DNA of 64,000 nucleotides from Pseudactinotalea sp. HY158 (GTDB lineage: Bacteria; Actinomycetota; Actinomycetes; Actinomycetales; Beutenbergiaceae), in the NCBI RefSeq assembly GCF_009660225.1, contig NZ_CP045920.1:2740079-2804078 (forward strand), read 5' to 3'. A program made the translations under genes and the position numbers. Below, one piece after another: positions 12,582 through 17,259 of the stretch. Below the pieces are notes generated by a model. The model was not told where the DNA came from, made no database searches, and saw only the letters and a program-made list of their open reading frames with translations. Position 1 is the stretch's first letter, and each line of letters begins with the position of its first letter.

Positions 12582-13361
12582 ATGCCCTCCCCCGCCCCCC
12601 GTCGCCCGAATAATCGACCGAACCATCGTCCGGTCGGTCGAGCGACCGATCGAGCGAGCGGCCGACCGACCGATCGACCGACCCGGCGGCAGGAGGCCGC
12701 CGCGGCCTCCCGGGCCGAGACGCGCCGGCGGCTGCTCCGGGCCGCGGGCGCGGAGTTCGCCGACCGCGGTTATCACGCGGCCACCGTCGCCCGGATCGCG
12801 GACCGGGCCGGCGTCACGGTCCAGACCCTCTACCTCGCCTGGGGAAGCAAGCGCGCCCTCCTGCGCGCGCACCTGGACGCCGCACTCTCGGGCGATGCGG
12901 GCACGGACTATTCCGAGCAACTCCCGCGTCTCATCAGCCAGTCGTTCGGCGGCACCGAGTCCGATGCCCGGGCCGTGGTCGAGCGCATCGCGCGGTTCTA
13001 TGTCGGACTCGCCGGTCGCGCGGCCCTCGGCTGGCGCCTCTACCGGGACGCGGCGGCGACCGACGCCGAGGTCGCGGCCGACTGGCGGGCCCTGCAGGAT
13101 CTGCGCCGCCGCACCGTCGCCGACCTCGTCGGGCGGATACCGGCCGCCGAGCTGCGGGCGGACCTGACGCCCGAGGCCGCGGCCGACACGGCGTGGGCCA
13201 TCGCGAGCCCGGAGACCTATGAGCTCCTGGTCACCACGGCCGGCTACGACCTGGCGGCGTACGAGCACTGGGTCGGCCGCACCCTCGCCGCGGCGCTCCT
13301 GGCCCGACCGGCCCCACCCGGCCCCGACCGGCCCCAACCCCGTGAGGGCCACGACACCTGA
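12582..13361 (+). CDS. TetR/AcrR-family transcriptional regulator
   Basis: Encodes 259 residues. The DNA-binding part is at residues 44-90: RAETRRRLLRAAGAEFADRG, then ATVARIADRAGVTVQTLYLAWGSKRALL, the standard TetR helix-turn-helix with Leu-Tyr-Leu-Ala-Trp in the recognition helix region. The C-terminal ligand domain is helical and unassigned. The first 40 residues are an unusual Arg/Pro/Asp-rich extension coded by a CGAC/CGAT-type repeat; the true start may be further in, for example near the Arg-rich start of helix 1. It faces the broken CocE-type gene across a perfect palindrome, so it probably repressed that gene, which no longer makes a full product. Confidence 0.88.
   Translation: MPSPAPRRPNNRPNHRPVGRATDRASGRPTDRPTRRQEAAAASRAETRRRLLRAAGAEFADRGYHAATVARIADRAGVTVQTLYLAWGSKRALLRAHLDAALSGDAGTDYSEQLPRLISQSFGGTESDARAVVERIARFYVGLAGRAALGWRLYRDAAATDAEVAADWRALQDLRRRTVADLVGRIPAAELRADLTPEAAADTAWAIASPETYELLVTTAGYDLAAYEHWVGRTLAAALLARPAPPGPDRPQPREGHDT
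12613..12690 (+). repeat. Degenerate four-base repeat (CGAC/CGAT/CGGT) in the TetR N terminus
   Basis: About 78 bases consist of irregular four-base units such as CCGACCGACCGATCGACCGA. They encode the Arg/Asp/Pro-rich head of the TetR protein. Slippage during replication would change the frame of the N-terminal extension. No known regulatory role. Confidence 0.6.
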
Positions 13362-13364
13362 CCG

Positions 13365-13763
13365 TCAGCGGCGGCCGGGCGCGCGTCCGTCCGCGCGGAG
13401 CAGCCGGAACTCCTGCCGGCGCAGCAGCCGCAGGATGAGCCGGGCCGGAAAGCCGAACGCGCGCCGCCCGTCGTCGGCCGGATAGGGCTCGATCGCGACG
13501 ATCCGGTACACGGTGCCGCCGACGAGGATCCGGCAGCTACCCGCCGCGACGACGTTGCGGTACCAGTCCACGCCCGCGCCGTAGGTGAGCTCGGCGACGA
13601 ACCCCTGCGGCACGCGCGCCACGATGATCGGCGTCTCGTAGACCTTCCCGGACCTGCGCCCGACGTGTCGCACGAGCGAGATCGGCCCGACGCCGGACTT
13701 CGCGAGCCGGATCGTGAACCGGTTGAGCGTGTTCTTGACCAGCCAGAGGAATGTCCGCCGCAT
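13365..13763 (-). CDS. Deazaflavin (F420)-dependent nitroreductase-family protein
   Basis: Encodes 132 residues from MRRTFLWLVKNTLNRF; a longer in-frame start at 13832 is unlikely. HVGRRSGKVYETPIIVARV and GVDWYRNVVAAGSCRILVGGTVY match the Ddn-like split-barrel family, in which the first stretch contacts the cofactor phosphates and WYRNV precedes the conserved turn. Members bind F420H2 (or other flavins or haem) and reduce quinones, nitro compounds or similar substrates. The length is close to the family norm. The gene lies 84 bases downstream of the ogt-sigma-ogt operon and may be co-transcribed, though no functional link is known. Confidence 0.82.
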   Translation of the reverse strand: MRRTFLWLVKNTLNRFTIRLAKSGVGPISLVRHVGRRSGKVYETPIIVARVPQGFVAELTYGAGVDWYRNVVAAGSCRILVGGTVYRIVAIEPYPADDGRRAFGFPARLILRLLRRQEFRLLRADGRAPGRR

Positions 13764-13847
13764 CCGCCCAATCTCGCATCGCCCTCGAGGCGGGTCAATG
13801 GGCACCCCGGTGCGCGGGCCGTCGAGCGGCACGTGGACGCCGGCCCG

Positions 13848-14564
13848 TCACGCGGCCCGCTCGAGCGCGAGCAGCGCGGCCTTCGCCTCGAGCCCGCCGA
13901 CGTAGCCGCCGAGCGTGCCGTCCGAGCGCAGCACGCGGTGGCACGGCACCACGACCGGGAGCGGATTGGTGGCGCAGGCGGTGCCCACGGCGCGCACGGC
14001 CCCCGGACTGCCCACGGACGCGGCGACCTCACGGTAGGAGCGGGTGTGGCCGTAGGCGATCTGCGGCAGCGACCGCTGCACCCGCTCCCTGAACCCGGCG
14101 GAGAGCGCGTGGTCGAGGGTCAGGTCGAAGGCCCGGCGGTCCCCGGCGAAGTACTCCGCCAGTTCCCGGGCGGCGGCCGCGAGCCCGGTCGGGGTCTCGA
14201 GGATCCGCGCGCCGATCCGGCCCGCGAGCGCGGACAGCACCGCCTCGAAACCCTCCCGCTCGAACGCGACCCGCACGAGCCCGCGGGCCGTCGCCGCGAG
14301 CAGCAGCGGCCCGATCGGGCTGTCGATCACCCGATAACGGACGTCGAGGATCGCCTCGGCCTGCGCGCTCGCCTCGAGCCGGGCATGCAGTCTCGCCAGG
14401 TCCGCGTGCGTCACCGGGAACAACTCGCCGTCCGTCGCGTCGGGGGCGGCTCTGTCCGCCCGGCCGGGGCCGCCGAGGGCGGGGCCGCCGAGGCCGCCGG
14501 GGCCGTCGGGGCCGGCTCTGTCCGCCCGGCCGGGGGATCCGGGCAGATCGGGTCGCGCGTTCAT
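13848..14564 (-). CDS. ogt: Methylated-DNA--protein-cysteine S-methyltransferase (second copy)
   Basis: Encodes 238 residues from ATG 14564, preceded by GGAGG. The C-terminal half is the alkyltransferase: SYREVAASVGSPGAVRAVGTA then PVVVPCHRVLRSDGTLGGYVGG, with the acceptor Cys in PCHR and the Asn-hinge region. The suicide enzyme takes alkyl groups from O6-alkylguanine. The first 50 residues are a Gly/Pro/Arg/Asp-rich tract (GRADRAGPDGPGG repeated) not found in typical Ogt. The start overlaps the stop of the sigma-factor gene by ATGA, so translation is probably coupled. A separate, more standard Ogt is the first gene of the same operon. Confidence 0.92.
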   Translation of the reverse strand: MNARPDLPGSPGRADRAGPDGPGGLGGPALGGPGRADRAAPDATDGELFPVTHADLARLHARLEASAQAEAILDVRYRVIDSPIGPLLLAATARGLVRVAFEREGFEAVLSALAGRIGARILETPTGLAAAARELAEYFAGDRRAFDLTLDHALSAGFRERVQRSLPQIAYGHTRSYREVAASVGSPGAVRAVGTACATNPLPVVVPCHRVLRSDGTLGGYVGGLEAKAALLALERAA

Positions 14565-15136
14565 CGGGATCCTCCCTCGTCGTGATAGATCGTGCGCAGC
14601 CGTCGAATGCCGTCCGCGGCGGCGCGGCGAACCGATTCGGGCGTGCCGCCGATGAACTGCGCGGTCTCGGTGTGGGCGAGCCCGCCGAGGTAGTGGTAGC
14701 CGAGCGCGAGACGCTGCCGCTCGGGCAGGGCCGCGACCCGGCCCCAGAGGGTGGCCGAGTCGATCGCCGCATCGCCTCCCGGGTCCCCGCCGCTCGATCC
14801 ACCCGACCCCGATCCACCGGCCCCCGATCCACCGGGCCCGCTCGATCCACCGGGCCCCGCGCGTGCGGGCGGTTCCGGGAGCGTCTCGGTGGGGACGGCC
14901 CGCCGGTCGCGGGCGCGGATGACGTCGATCGCCTTGCGTCGGGCGATGCGCACGAGCCACGCCTCGACGTTGGCGCCCTCCTCCAGGTCCGGCCAGGCAC
15001 GCAGCGCCGCGAGGAACGTCTCGGACCACGCGTCCTCGGCGTCGGCCCCCGGCCCGAGCACGGCCCGGCACACCCGCAGCACGGTGACCCCGTGGCCGGT
15101 GACGGCGCACTCGAACGGTTGCTGCGTCGTCCTCAC
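14561..15136 (-). CDS. ECF-type RNA polymerase sigma factor in an alkyltransferase operon
   Basis: Encodes 191 residues from GTG 15136, two bases after the upstream ogt stop. Region 2 is AEDAWSETFLAALRAWPDLE followed by EAWLVRIARRKAIDVIRARD. Region 4 is LPERQRLALGYHYLGGLAHTETAQFIGG then the recognition helix SVRRAAADGIRRLR. Between them is a Gly/Ser-rich linker of about 25 residues (repeated GGSGPGGSG-type units) that is much longer and more repetitive than usual. No anti-sigma gene is seen; the neighbours on both sides are alkyltransferases, so the sigma factor probably drives an alkylation response, perhaps controlled through the Ogt proteins. That control mechanism is inference. Confidence 0.88.
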   Translation of the reverse strand: MRTTQQPFECAVTGHGVTVLRVCRAVLGPGADAEDAWSETFLAALRAWPDLEEGANVEAWLVRIARRKAIDVIRARDRRAVPTETLPEPPARAGPGGSSGPGGSGAGGSGSGGSSGGDPGGDAAIDSATLWGRVAALPERQRLALGYHYLGGLAHTETAQFIGGTPESVRRAAADGIRRLRTIYHDEGGSR

Positions 15137-15138
15137 CC

Positions 15139-15663
15139 CTAGAACAGTCGGGAGGCGGCCGCGGCGGCCGGCTCCTCGAGCTCGAGCAGGCGCCGCTTGC
15201 GTTCGAGGCCGCCGGCGTAGCCGGTGAGCGAGCCGTCGGCGCCGACCACGCGATGACACGGGATGAGGATGCTCACCGGGTTCTTGCCCACGCACCCGCC
15301 CACGCGCTGGGCGAGGTGGCGGTTGCCGAGGCGCCGGGCGAGGTCGCCGTAGGTGGTCGTGTGCCCGTACGGGATCTCGGCGAGCAGGCCCCAGACGCGC
15401 TCGGAGAAGGCATCGCCGCGGGTCGACACCGGAACATCGACGCGGCTCCGCTCGCCGGCGAGGTAGGAGCGCAGCCGGCTCGCGGCGAGCCGGAGCACGG
15501 GCAGGGCGCGCTCGGTCACGAGCTCGCCGAACGCCGGTTCGGCGGGCAGGTGCGGGTGCCCGGGGAAGTACAGGCCCGTGATCGCCTCGCCGTCCGTGAC
15601 GAGGGTCAACTCCCCCAGGTCGGTCTCGATCCGGGCATGGTTCGTCATGGTCGTGGTGGTCAC
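15139..15663 (-). CDS. ogt: Methylated-DNA--protein-cysteine S-methyltransferase (first copy)
   Basis: Encodes 174 residues, normal Ogt length, beginning at GTG 15663 or at an in-frame ATG 15 bases later. The C-terminal domain has IPYGHTTTYGDLARRLGNRH, the DNA-binding helix-turn-helix with RVGGCVGKNP, and the acceptor motif ILIPCHRVVGADGSLTGYAGG. It repairs O6-methylguanine in DNA by transferring the alkyl group to its own Cys. It is the first gene of a three-gene operon with an ECF sigma factor and a second alkyltransferase, spaced by 2 bases and then an ATGA overlap. Confidence 0.94.
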   Translation of the reverse strand: MTTTTMTNHARIETDLGELTLVTDGEAITGLYFPGHPHLPAEPAFGELVTERALPVLRLAASRLRSYLAGERSRVDVPVSTRGDAFSERVWGLLAEIPYGHTTTYGDLARRLGNRHLAQRVGGCVGKNPVSILIPCHRVVGADGSLTGYAGGLERKRRLLELEEPAAAAASRLF

Positions 15664-15830
15664 CGCGCCTCACCGCCTCTCACCGGGTAGACGCCCCGGA
15701 GCGCGCGAACGTGAGGCGGCGGGATGCGCCGATCGCGGATCCGCGCCGGGGAACCTCGCCCGGCCCCCTGGCCCTTCTGCGTGAACCGGCGGAGAATGAG
15801 ACACGGTTCCCTTTCTCGGAGGTGTCGATC

Positions 15831-16508
15831 ATGACGACTACACCAATGATGATGCCCATGCTGGCGCGTGGGAAGCACCGCAAACCCCGACGCGGGGCGT
15901 GCTTCATGGAATTGGCCTCGTATCTGGCGGGCCAGCCGTGGAGCGACCATCCCGCCTGCACGGACCCGGCGCTGGCGCAGCTGGCGCGACTGGTCAACGA
16001 TCTCACCACGGATGCGGGGCGCCCGCAGCTCGCGCCGATGATCCCGTCGGTGATCGGCATCGTCGATCTCGGCGACGAGTACATCGAGGAGGTCGCGGTC
16101 ATCGCCGCCCTCCGGGCGCTGCCGATCGCGGCGCTCGAGCATCAGCACGGCCTCGGCGTGGGCCTGCTGCGGATCCTCGGTGACTCCGGCCCGTACCCCG
16201 TGGCCGTGCGGGAGCCGTGGCGCAGTCGTGCCGAGGCGGAGCTGGCCGACCACACCGCCCTGCGCTCCTGGTCGGTCGCGTTCATGCGCCGGATGAAGAT
16301 CGCGCTGCCGCCGCTGTCGGTGGCCATCCCGCTCACGGTGATCGCCGCCCGGGCGCTCTCCGAGGCGTGCGTGGGCGATCCCGACGCGGAGCTGCGCGCC
16401 GTGCTCGGCGAGGCGATCGACTGGGCGCGCGCATGCGCCGGGTCCGACGCGCCCGAGGCGTCTCCGCTCGAGCCGCACCAGTGGGCGGGCATGGTCCGCT
16501 CCGCCTGA
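15831..16508 (+). CDS. Conserved actinobacterial protein of unknown function
   Basis: Encodes 225 residues from an ATG preceded by CGGAGG. No signal peptide or membrane segment is visible. The N terminus has GKHRKPRRGACFMELASYLAG then WSDHPACTDPALAQLARLVND, a block I recognise from uncharacterised actinobacterial proteins, followed by a mostly helical region with VIGIVDLGDEY. The remainder is Ala/Leu-rich helix. The conserved Cys-Phe-Met-Glu and the second Cys could be functional, but no reaction is known. It is divergent from the ogt operon, with 167 bases between, and is followed by an M50 peptidase gene 34 bases later. Confidence 0.65.
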   Translation: MTTTPMMMPMLARGKHRKPRRGACFMELASYLAGQPWSDHPACTDPALAQLARLVNDLTTDAGRPQLAPMIPSVIGIVDLGDEYIEEVAVIAALRALPIAALEHQHGLGVGLLRILGDSGPYPVAVREPWRSRAEAELADHTALRSWSVAFMRRMKIALPPLSVAIPLTVIAARALSEACVGDPDAELRAVLGEAIDWARACAGSDAPEASPLEPHQWAGMVRSA

Positions 16509-16542
16509 TCCGGCCACCGCGCGGTTCACGTAGGCTGCGCCG

Positions 16543-17259
16543 GTGGAGATTCTGAGCGAGGTCTGGGTCCGGGTGCTGCCGGTCGACGCCCCCGAGGTCG
16601 AGGCCCGCTCGCTGCTGCTCGCCGCCGCGGTGGCGCTGGCGATCGTCGTGATCGGGCCGCTGTGGCGGCTCGCGCGGCTCGGGGTGACGCTCGTGCACGA
16701 ACTCGGGCACGCCCTCGTCGGGCTCGCGTGCGGGCGCTCGTTCACGGGCCTCGTGCTGCGCGCCGACGCCTCCGGCCATGCCGTCACCCGCGGCCCCGAG
16801 CGCGGTGCCGGGCGGGCGCTGACGACCTGGGCGGGCTATCCGGCGCCGGCGATCGCCGGGGCCGCGGCGATCGCGGCGGCCACGTGGGGATGGGCCGCCC
16901 CGGTGCTCACGCTCGCGCTCGTCGCGGCGGCCGCCGCGCTCGTGCGCGCACGATCCTGGCTCACCGGGTCGGTCACGCTCGCCGTGACGGCCGGGCTCGG
17001 CCTGCTGTGGTGGCGTGGGGACGACGCCTGGCAGGCCTGGGTGCTCATCGTCGCCGGGGGCGTGGGGATCGTGGGCGCGTGGCGGCACCTCGGTGCCGTG
17101 GCCGGCTCCCGGTCACCCACGAGCGATCCGGCCGTGCTCGCGTGGCTGACGAGGGTGCCCGCGGCGGTCTGGAACGTGAGCTTCGCGCTCGCCTGCGGGG
17201 CGGCGACCTGGTTCGCCGGGAGCAGGCTGTGGGCCCTGTGGCCGGGGTCGTTGCTATGA
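16543..17259 (+). CDS. M50-family intramembrane metallopeptidase-like protein
   Basis: Encodes 238 residues from a GTG. LVHELGHALVGLACGRSFTGL near residues 50-70 contains the HExxH zinc site (His52, Glu53, His56) inside a membrane segment, as in M50B-like proteins. Some six more hydrophobic segments follow. AGYPAPAIAGAAAI resembles the YxGPPxxN region that precedes the third ligand in the family, but a clear third zinc ligand (NPDG/LDG motif) is not seen. It may therefore be a peptidase, or a non-proteolytic relative. It ends within the convergent beta-lactamase-fold gene (six-base overlap). Confidence 0.75.
   Translation: MEILSEVWVRVLPVDAPEVEARSLLLAAAVALAIVVIGPLWRLARLGVTLVHELGHALVGLACGRSFTGLVLRADASGHAVTRGPERGAGRALTTWAGYPAPAIAGAAAIAAATWGWAAPVLTLALVAAAAALVRARSWLTGSVTLAVTAGLGLLWWRGDDAWQAWVLIVAGGVGIVGAWRHLGAVAGSRSPTSDPAVLAWLTRVPAAVWNVSFALACGAATWFAGSRLWALWPGSLL

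Follow-up and report, generated by a model that had tools for sequence, protein, structure and literature searches.

An alkyltransferase as candidate anti-sigma factor of an ECF122-like sigma factor in actinobacteria

In a 64,000-nt stretch of the Pseudactinotalea sp. HY158 genome (contig NZ_CP045920.1; referred to here as the window), an ECF sigma factor is encoded together with two alkyltransferases, Ogt1 and Ogt2. We consider it somewhat probable that Ogt2 serves as the anti-sigma factor of a self-regulated alkylation-repair switch, which would be relieved by its own alkylation. Ogt2 alone, not both alkyltransferases, is likely the regulator candidate, because it has an extra N-terminal helix, is a near-universal neighbor of the sigma factor, and shows coevolution with it. 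This coevolution supports a direct sigma-Ogt2 contact, from which, along with the other sequence evidence presented below, we infer inhibition of sigma by Ogt2 and relief of this inhibition by alkylation.

Layout and conservation of the locus

Inspection of the open reading frames and of the sequence bore out an arrangement of three tightly spaced genes, with junctions of +2 bases between ogt1 and the sigma gene and −4 bases (ATGA) between the sigma gene and ogt2 (Table 1). The latter overlap suggests translational coupling of sigma and ogt2. Pfam searches assigned PF01035 to Ogt1 (P0001) and only PF02870 and PF01035 to Ogt2 (P0003). The sigma protein (P0002) matched PF04542 (Sigma70_r2) and PF04545 (Sigma70_r4), i.e., regions 2 and 4 only, as expected for an ECF sigma factor, and scored above the model cutoff of TIGR02937. 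PF01035 occurs at three places in the genome of the window, two of which are those at the ogt1/ogt2 locus. Consistently with the initial annotation, which placed no anti-sigma gene beside sigma, a Pfam scan of the seven window proteins encoded in 12582-17259 detected no anti-sigma domain.

Table 1. Coordinates (window numbering) of the genes and predicted elements of the ogt1-sigma-ogt2 locus
Feature	Position	Strand	Description
ogt1 (P0001)	15139-15663	minus	174-aa alkyltransferase (PF01035); probable regulon effector
ECF sigma gene (P0002)	14561-15136	minus	191 aa, regions 2 and 4; ECF122-like
ogt2 (P0003)	13848-14564	minus	238-aa alkyltransferase (PF02870 and PF01035) with N-terminal extension; proposed anti-sigma factor and sensor
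ATGA overlap, sigma stop/ogt2 start	14561-14564	minus	From sequence
Ogt2 active-site PCHR, residues 207-210	13935-13946	minus	Conserved motif; methyl-acceptor Cys208
Ogt2 helix, residues 53-70	14355-14408	minus	AlphaFold model; couplings at residues 55, 56, 58, 60, and 64; proposed sigma-binding element
Predicted sigma-dependent promoter	15690-15715	minus	CTCAC (15711-15715), 17 bases, CGTC (15690-15693); upstream of ogt1

Some local features of the window accompany this layout, among them low-complexity expansions in both sigma and Ogt2. The sigma factor is longer here (191 aa) than in its relatives (median, 163 aa), and tandem repeats at 14795-14859 encode a Gly/Ser-rich linker between its regions 2 and 4. 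A second set of tandem repeats, at 14438-14535, encodes the N-terminal tail of Ogt2, which is of low confidence in the AlphaFold model. Downstream of ogt2, 13365-13832 encodes a deazaflavin-dependent nitroreductase-like protein (PF04075). A 265-aa open reading frame (15711-16508), for which no Pfam or NCBIfam match was found, lies on the strand opposite to the operon and shares sequence with the distal end of the promoter element.

A scan of named genomes placed an Ogt2-like gene directly 3′ of the sigma gene at 75 of 77 loci, a shared order that is not attributable to chance. The other two correspond to a contig edge (L067) and an unrelated sigma factor with 26% identity (L110). By their titles, the named loci belong mostly to actinobacteria, along with metagenome bins labeled Rokuibacteriota (L081, L083, and L091) or Acidobacteria (L104). 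When loci were pooled, Ogt2 came next in 286 of 288 distinct sigma genes (sigma score of at least 120 and at least 350 nt of downstream DNA), a count that takes in three pairs missed by automated pair finding (L222, L226, and L228). One of the two exceptions, L304, has the sigma gene but neither Ogt2 nor the promoter-like element described below. The other, L345, belongs to a genome (G926) in which the extended Ogt2 is encoded at an unlinked locus (L369) behind an element of the same CTCAC-N17 type; each of the two separated genes thus has an element copy of its own, which makes this genome a natural test of the pairing. In a sample drawn evenly from the phylum (396 genomes), 61 genomes carried the sigma factor at an E value of 1e-30, at 62 places, and Ogt2 was adjacent at 60 of these. 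Contig ends account for the remaining two: in G361, sigma and Ogt2 fall on two contigs, one of which begins with Ogt2, and in G310 the locus is cut, leaving a partial Ogt match. In a strict yes/no test, a start codon in the Ogt2 frame overlapped the sigma stop by exactly 4 nt in 254 of 294 distinct pairs. No natural sigma-Ogt2 fusion was found among 313 pairs.

The association was also evident from the side of the alkyltransferase. Across the phylum sample, Ogts with the extension had sigma upstream far more often than Ogts without it (P = 2e-6). Of 31 places matching the Ogt2 model without sigma at an E value of 1e-30, 16 were N extended, and all of these except the split G361 pair were inspected. 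At nine of the 15, inspection revealed a sigma gene directly upstream that is more divergent; one (L189) is truncated where its contig ends; and at five (L187, L192, L196, L200, and L201) no sigma gene was found. At L187, two ogt genes lie side by side, and neither a sigma gene nor the element was found, an apparent joint loss.

The gene order thus recurs in other actinobacteria, as the initial annotation had proposed to check, but its description of a sigma factor sandwiched between two alkyltransferases holds for the window and not as a rule: ogt1 is adjacent, completing the ogt1-sigma-ogt2 order, in only 29 of 76 loci. The conserved core is the sigma-ogt2 pair, and ogt1 is optional. A three-gene circuit with both Ogts as partners is ruled out by this count and by the occurrence of Ogt1-like genes alone elsewhere.

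The promoter-like element and the genes behind it

The initial annotation had proposed a search for an ECF-type promoter upstream of ogt1, and a promoter-like CTCAC-N17-CGTC sequence is present there (Table 1). The CTCAC-N17-CGTC/T element was found in 72 of 77 upstream regions (76 loci and the window), where the spacing of the gene-nearest site was always 17, even though 14 to 20 were allowed. In a larger set, CTCAC-N17-CGTY preceded 239 of 289 operons and CTCAC-N17-CGWY, which also admits A in place of the first T (as in an observed CGACT variant), preceded 260; among operons whose sigma factors scored at least 165 bits, the latter form was present in 231 of 237. Control spacings of 14 to 16 and 18 to 20 matched 1 to 19 of the 289 operons, and the reversed pattern matched 2. 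Many of the 29 operons that lack the element have the most divergent sigma factors. Likewise, at the nine divergent-sigma loci the CGTY element was missing in seven and present in two (L198 and L199), and eight of nine inspected Ogt loci without a found sigma gene had no CGTY site, the match at the ninth (L196) lying 1.1 kb upstream. We infer that the sigma factor reads the CTCAC-N17-CGWY element. At loci without an adjoining ogt1, the usual distance from the site to the sigma start is ∼34 bases, suggestive of a leaderless transcript.

To outline the regulon, we used a stringent form of the element, which returned 36 sites in 33 of the 76 sigma-bearing genomes; its reversed control returned none in all 76. 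By coordinates, the sigma operon accounts for 23 of these sites and the stretch immediately 3′ of ogt2 for 4, and the other 9 are unlinked. The nine unlinked sites precede Ogt1-like genes (two sites, L365 and L366; identified by eye), an Oxygenase-NA (PF09859) gene (two sites, in one case with an Ogt1-like gene in divergent orientation), an Ogt2-like gene whose product is 61% identical to Ogt2 of the window (one site), short-chain dehydrogenase genes (two sites, one recognized by domain scan and one by eye), a SnoaL-like gene (one site), and a transporter-like gene (one site, by eye). Among the four sites after ogt2, three precede a similar short-chain dehydrogenase gene (by eye). Among the named loci, L103 has in addition an AlkB-type gene (PF13532) immediately upstream of sigma that is preceded by such a site; the PF13532 match at L054 is weaker and below the family cutoff. 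The element therefore marks direct-reversal repair genes and a dehydrogenase. Because it precedes unlinked ogt1, ogt2-like, and Oxygenase-NA genes, the set looks like an alkylation-repair regulon, which supports the link to alkylation repair drawn initially. Ogt1 appears to be a regulated effector, given that in other genomes Ogt1-like genes at separate locations stand behind the same element.

The short-chain dehydrogenase gene follows the element in two members of the family of the window and, in three genomes of another genus, comes directly next to ogt2 on its 3′ side (L363, L364, L371, L372, and L373; the domain scan covered the L363 protein only). The strict form matches nowhere in the genome of the window, not even at the operon itself, and a looser N17 form has two sites there, one at the operon and one without a clear gene.

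Coevolution of sigma with the extra helix of Ogt2

Ogt2 is an O6-alkylguanine alkyltransferase by both its PCHR motif and its fold, the best fold match being the Mycobacterium tuberculosis OGT (4wxd). PCHR or PCHK was present in all 75 Ogt2 and all 29 Ogt1 sequences, and the P, C, H, and R columns of Ogt2 were at least 0.99 conserved in 292 pairs; the Ogt2 active site is, to judge by these residues, intact. The proteins differ ahead of this motif, which is preceded by a median of 170 residues in Ogt2 versus 129 in Ogt1. In the AlphaFold model, only one helix, spanning residues 53 to 70 with a mean model confidence near 90, precedes the Ogt domain. Natural solved Ogts align to Ogt2 from residue 73 or later, with earlier starts only in fusion constructs.

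Inter-protein couplings were computed from 313 sigma-Ogt2 pairs, which yielded 295 distinct rows and, after three were dropped for gaps, 292 (effective number, 205), a small set for such an analysis. By pseudo-likelihood, five of the six best inter-protein couplings fell in the Ogt2 extension, which holds 9.5% of the pairs (P of about 4e-5 on the assumption of independent positions, which positions are not). Counted deeper into the ranking, the extension had 5 pairs in the top 10 and 6 in the top 20. Its main couplings (window numbering; sigma residue first) are E34-D55, E9-H60, E9-E64, R178-R58, and V17-L56. The column pair of E9-H60 mostly combines E or D with H or R, with Q-A and W-L as alternatives, and the spacing of Ogt2 positions 56, 60, and 64 fits one face of a helix. 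Outside the helix, sigma 106-Ogt2 105 (model columns) ranked fifth among the inter-protein pairs by pseudo-likelihood.

The signal from the extension was weaker when partners were permuted within clades. Across 20 pseudo-likelihood permutations, the extension never held more than 2 pairs in the top 6, 3 in the top 10, and 5 in the top 20; with the true partners and identical settings, it held 4, 5, and 6, respectively. The best inter-protein pair had an overall rank of 12 in the real data and of 19 or lower after permutation. The top score exceeded the real one in 2 of 20 pseudo-likelihood and 1 of 20 mean-field permutations, never with a better rank. Mean-field analysis agreed more weakly: the extension held 4 of the top 10 pairs versus at most 2 after permutation, and the best rank was 14 versus 30 or lower. 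Among 17 mean-field subsamples of 80%, E9-H60 was in the top ten in 14 and E34-D55 in 13; outside the extension, two column pairs recurred as often, 65-138 in 14 and 106-105 in 13. A matched sigma-Ogt1 control comprised 96 triples, too few, and all three pairings looked like noise.

By our reading of the alignment, the coupled sigma positions appear to lie in regions 2 and 4. According to Casas-Pastor and coworkers (PMC7406223), the parts of sigma touched by class I anti-sigma factors are region 4 and regions 2.1/2.2, the latter being those that bind the polymerase clamp. Contacts with the same two regions, by a partner likewise encoded beside its sigma factor, are predicted for Ogt2. The class I partner is a four-helix domain; Ogt2, in contrast, is an alkyltransferase with an intact active site and one extra helix, and its PF02870 and PF01035 matches include no four-helix anti-sigma domain. 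Of the Ogt-sigma inhibition circuit envisaged at the outset, the part retained is that one Ogt likely contacts sigma, as the couplings indicate; the participation of both Ogts is not.

The proposed switch and its alternatives

We propose that CTCAC-N17-CGTC is the promoter from which the sigma factor drives transcription of the operon that encodes it and, in genomes other than that of the window, of unlinked ogt, ogt2-like, and damaged-DNA oxygenase genes as well. Autoregulation, here predicted for the window sigma factor, is common among pairs of ECF sigma and class I anti-sigma factors. Ogt2, made in step with sigma via the ATGA overlap, would bind it through the extra N-terminal helix, cover the polymerase-binding surface of region 2, and touch region 4, a placement by which it would act as an anti-sigma factor. 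Irreversible transfer of an alkyl group from DNA to the active-site cysteine of Ogt2 would then cost it its hold on sigma, and the freed sigma factor would direct synthesis of repair proteins and of fresh Ogt2, which would shut the response off again. Rather more tentatively, a self-consumed repair enzyme acting as anti-sigma factor could mean that one inhibitor is lost per alkylation event, so that O6-alkyl lesions are counted stoichiometrically and repair is kept proportional, as an Ada-independent adaptive response across actinobacteria. This reading and the three alternatives considered next overlap, and the likelihoods that we attach to them are not meant to add up to unity.

Ogt2 might instead be a methylation-dependent coactivator, in the manner of Ada and Cada2, that upon alkylation binds sigma or polymerase and switches transcription on; we regard this as unlikely. 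The known precedents do switch on by methylation in the accounts on which we rely (PMC10957082 and PMC4437013), and near-universal pairing with direct contact would fit a coactivator equally well. However, the couplings map to sigma regions that bind polymerase and promoter in other ECF sigma factors, which fits blocking better, and a self-transcribing sigma factor without an inhibitor would be expected to run away. Cada2 of Caulobacter is, nonetheless, a precedent for a methylated PCHR cysteine as the switch of a regulator: as far as the consulted part of its description goes, methylation of this cysteine activates the protein, a Cys-to-Ala change renders it inactive, and a Cys-to-Gly change renders it constitutive (PMC10957082). 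Cada2 thus has its regulatory switch in a PCHR cysteine within a PF01035 domain, as is proposed for Ogt2, but Cada2 is described in the same source as a DNA-binding activator with B-box and RLHD regions, and P0003 has no such domain. We read the RLHxRL helix of Ogt2 as a putative sigma-binding element.

Slightly less probable still is that Ogt2 acts as an anti-sigma factor that responds to a signal other than cysteine alkylation, e.g., that sigma is set free when Ogt2 binds damaged DNA or when spent Ogt2 is degraded. The same pairing and coevolution would be expected in that case. Moreover, sigma K68 (column 65) couples with Ogt2 T174 (column 138) and with V206 (column 170), which is only two positions away from the active-site Cys208. 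Such couplings would allow DNA and sigma to compete for Ogt2; the column pair 65-138 was in the top ten in 14 of the 17 mean-field subsamples. By pseudo-likelihood, however, 65-138 and 65-170 rank only 77th and 57th overall, below the helix pairs. Improbable, finally, is that Ogt2 is a mere repair enzyme of a regulon whose sigma factor is controlled by transcription or by an unlinked regulator, since, even though Ogt1-like and oxygenase genes also stand behind the element and some ECF groups are listed without an anti-sigma factor in the available text of a review (PMC8999054), ogt1 is optional and found unlinked, Ogt2 is almost never apart from sigma, and the extension and its sigma couplings would be left unexplained.

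Inhibition by Ogt2 with relief by alkylation would amount to a second logic of the adaptive response, a sigma/anti-sigma pair with the repair enzyme itself as the sensor, and would define a new class of anti-sigma factors that carry their own irreversible sensor. Ada-type activators underlie the adaptive responses to DNA alkylation that are described in the portions of the literature cited here. The initial annotation knew of no circuit of this kind. The neighborhood is in fact on record as ECF122, for which O6-methylguanine DNA methyltransferases are listed among possibly regulatory neighbors, with Cellulomonas sp. Root930 as the example; the mechanism is given as unknown in the text available (PMC8999054). 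The Cellulomonas loci in our set (L095 and L097) also have the methyltransferase neighbor. ECF122 resembles the locus of the window in its ECF sigma factor with a methyltransferase neighbor and in its lack of a recognized anti-sigma factor, and the window sigma factor accordingly resembles ECF122, membership being judged from the neighborhood. That review (PMC8999054) was the only source tying this sigma group to methyltransferases that turned up in the open-license literature searched, and its accessible text gives no promoter, regulon, interaction, or mechanism for ECF122. The group would gain from the system of the window a predicted promoter, regulon, contact surface, and signal, although a predicted promoter for ECF122 may already stand in the primary classification (NAR 2021).

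Ada of E. coli is, like the proposed Ogt2, a self-methylating protein that regulates alkylation-repair genes, including its own. Ada has an Ada_Zn_binding domain, whereas P0003 lacks it and the system of the window uses a dedicated sigma factor; no Ada_Zn_binding match was found in the genome of the window. A general replacement of Ada by the sigma-Ogt2 system is ruled out, as the two did not exclude each other in the 396 phylum genomes: Ada_Zn_binding occurred in 12 of 61 genomes with sigma versus 88 of 335 without (P = 0.34). Within the family of the window, with sigma presence judged by eye from the best E values, the domain was present in 2 of 17 genomes with sigma (3 of 17 if a weak match in G009 is included) versus 6 of 7 without (P = 0.0013).
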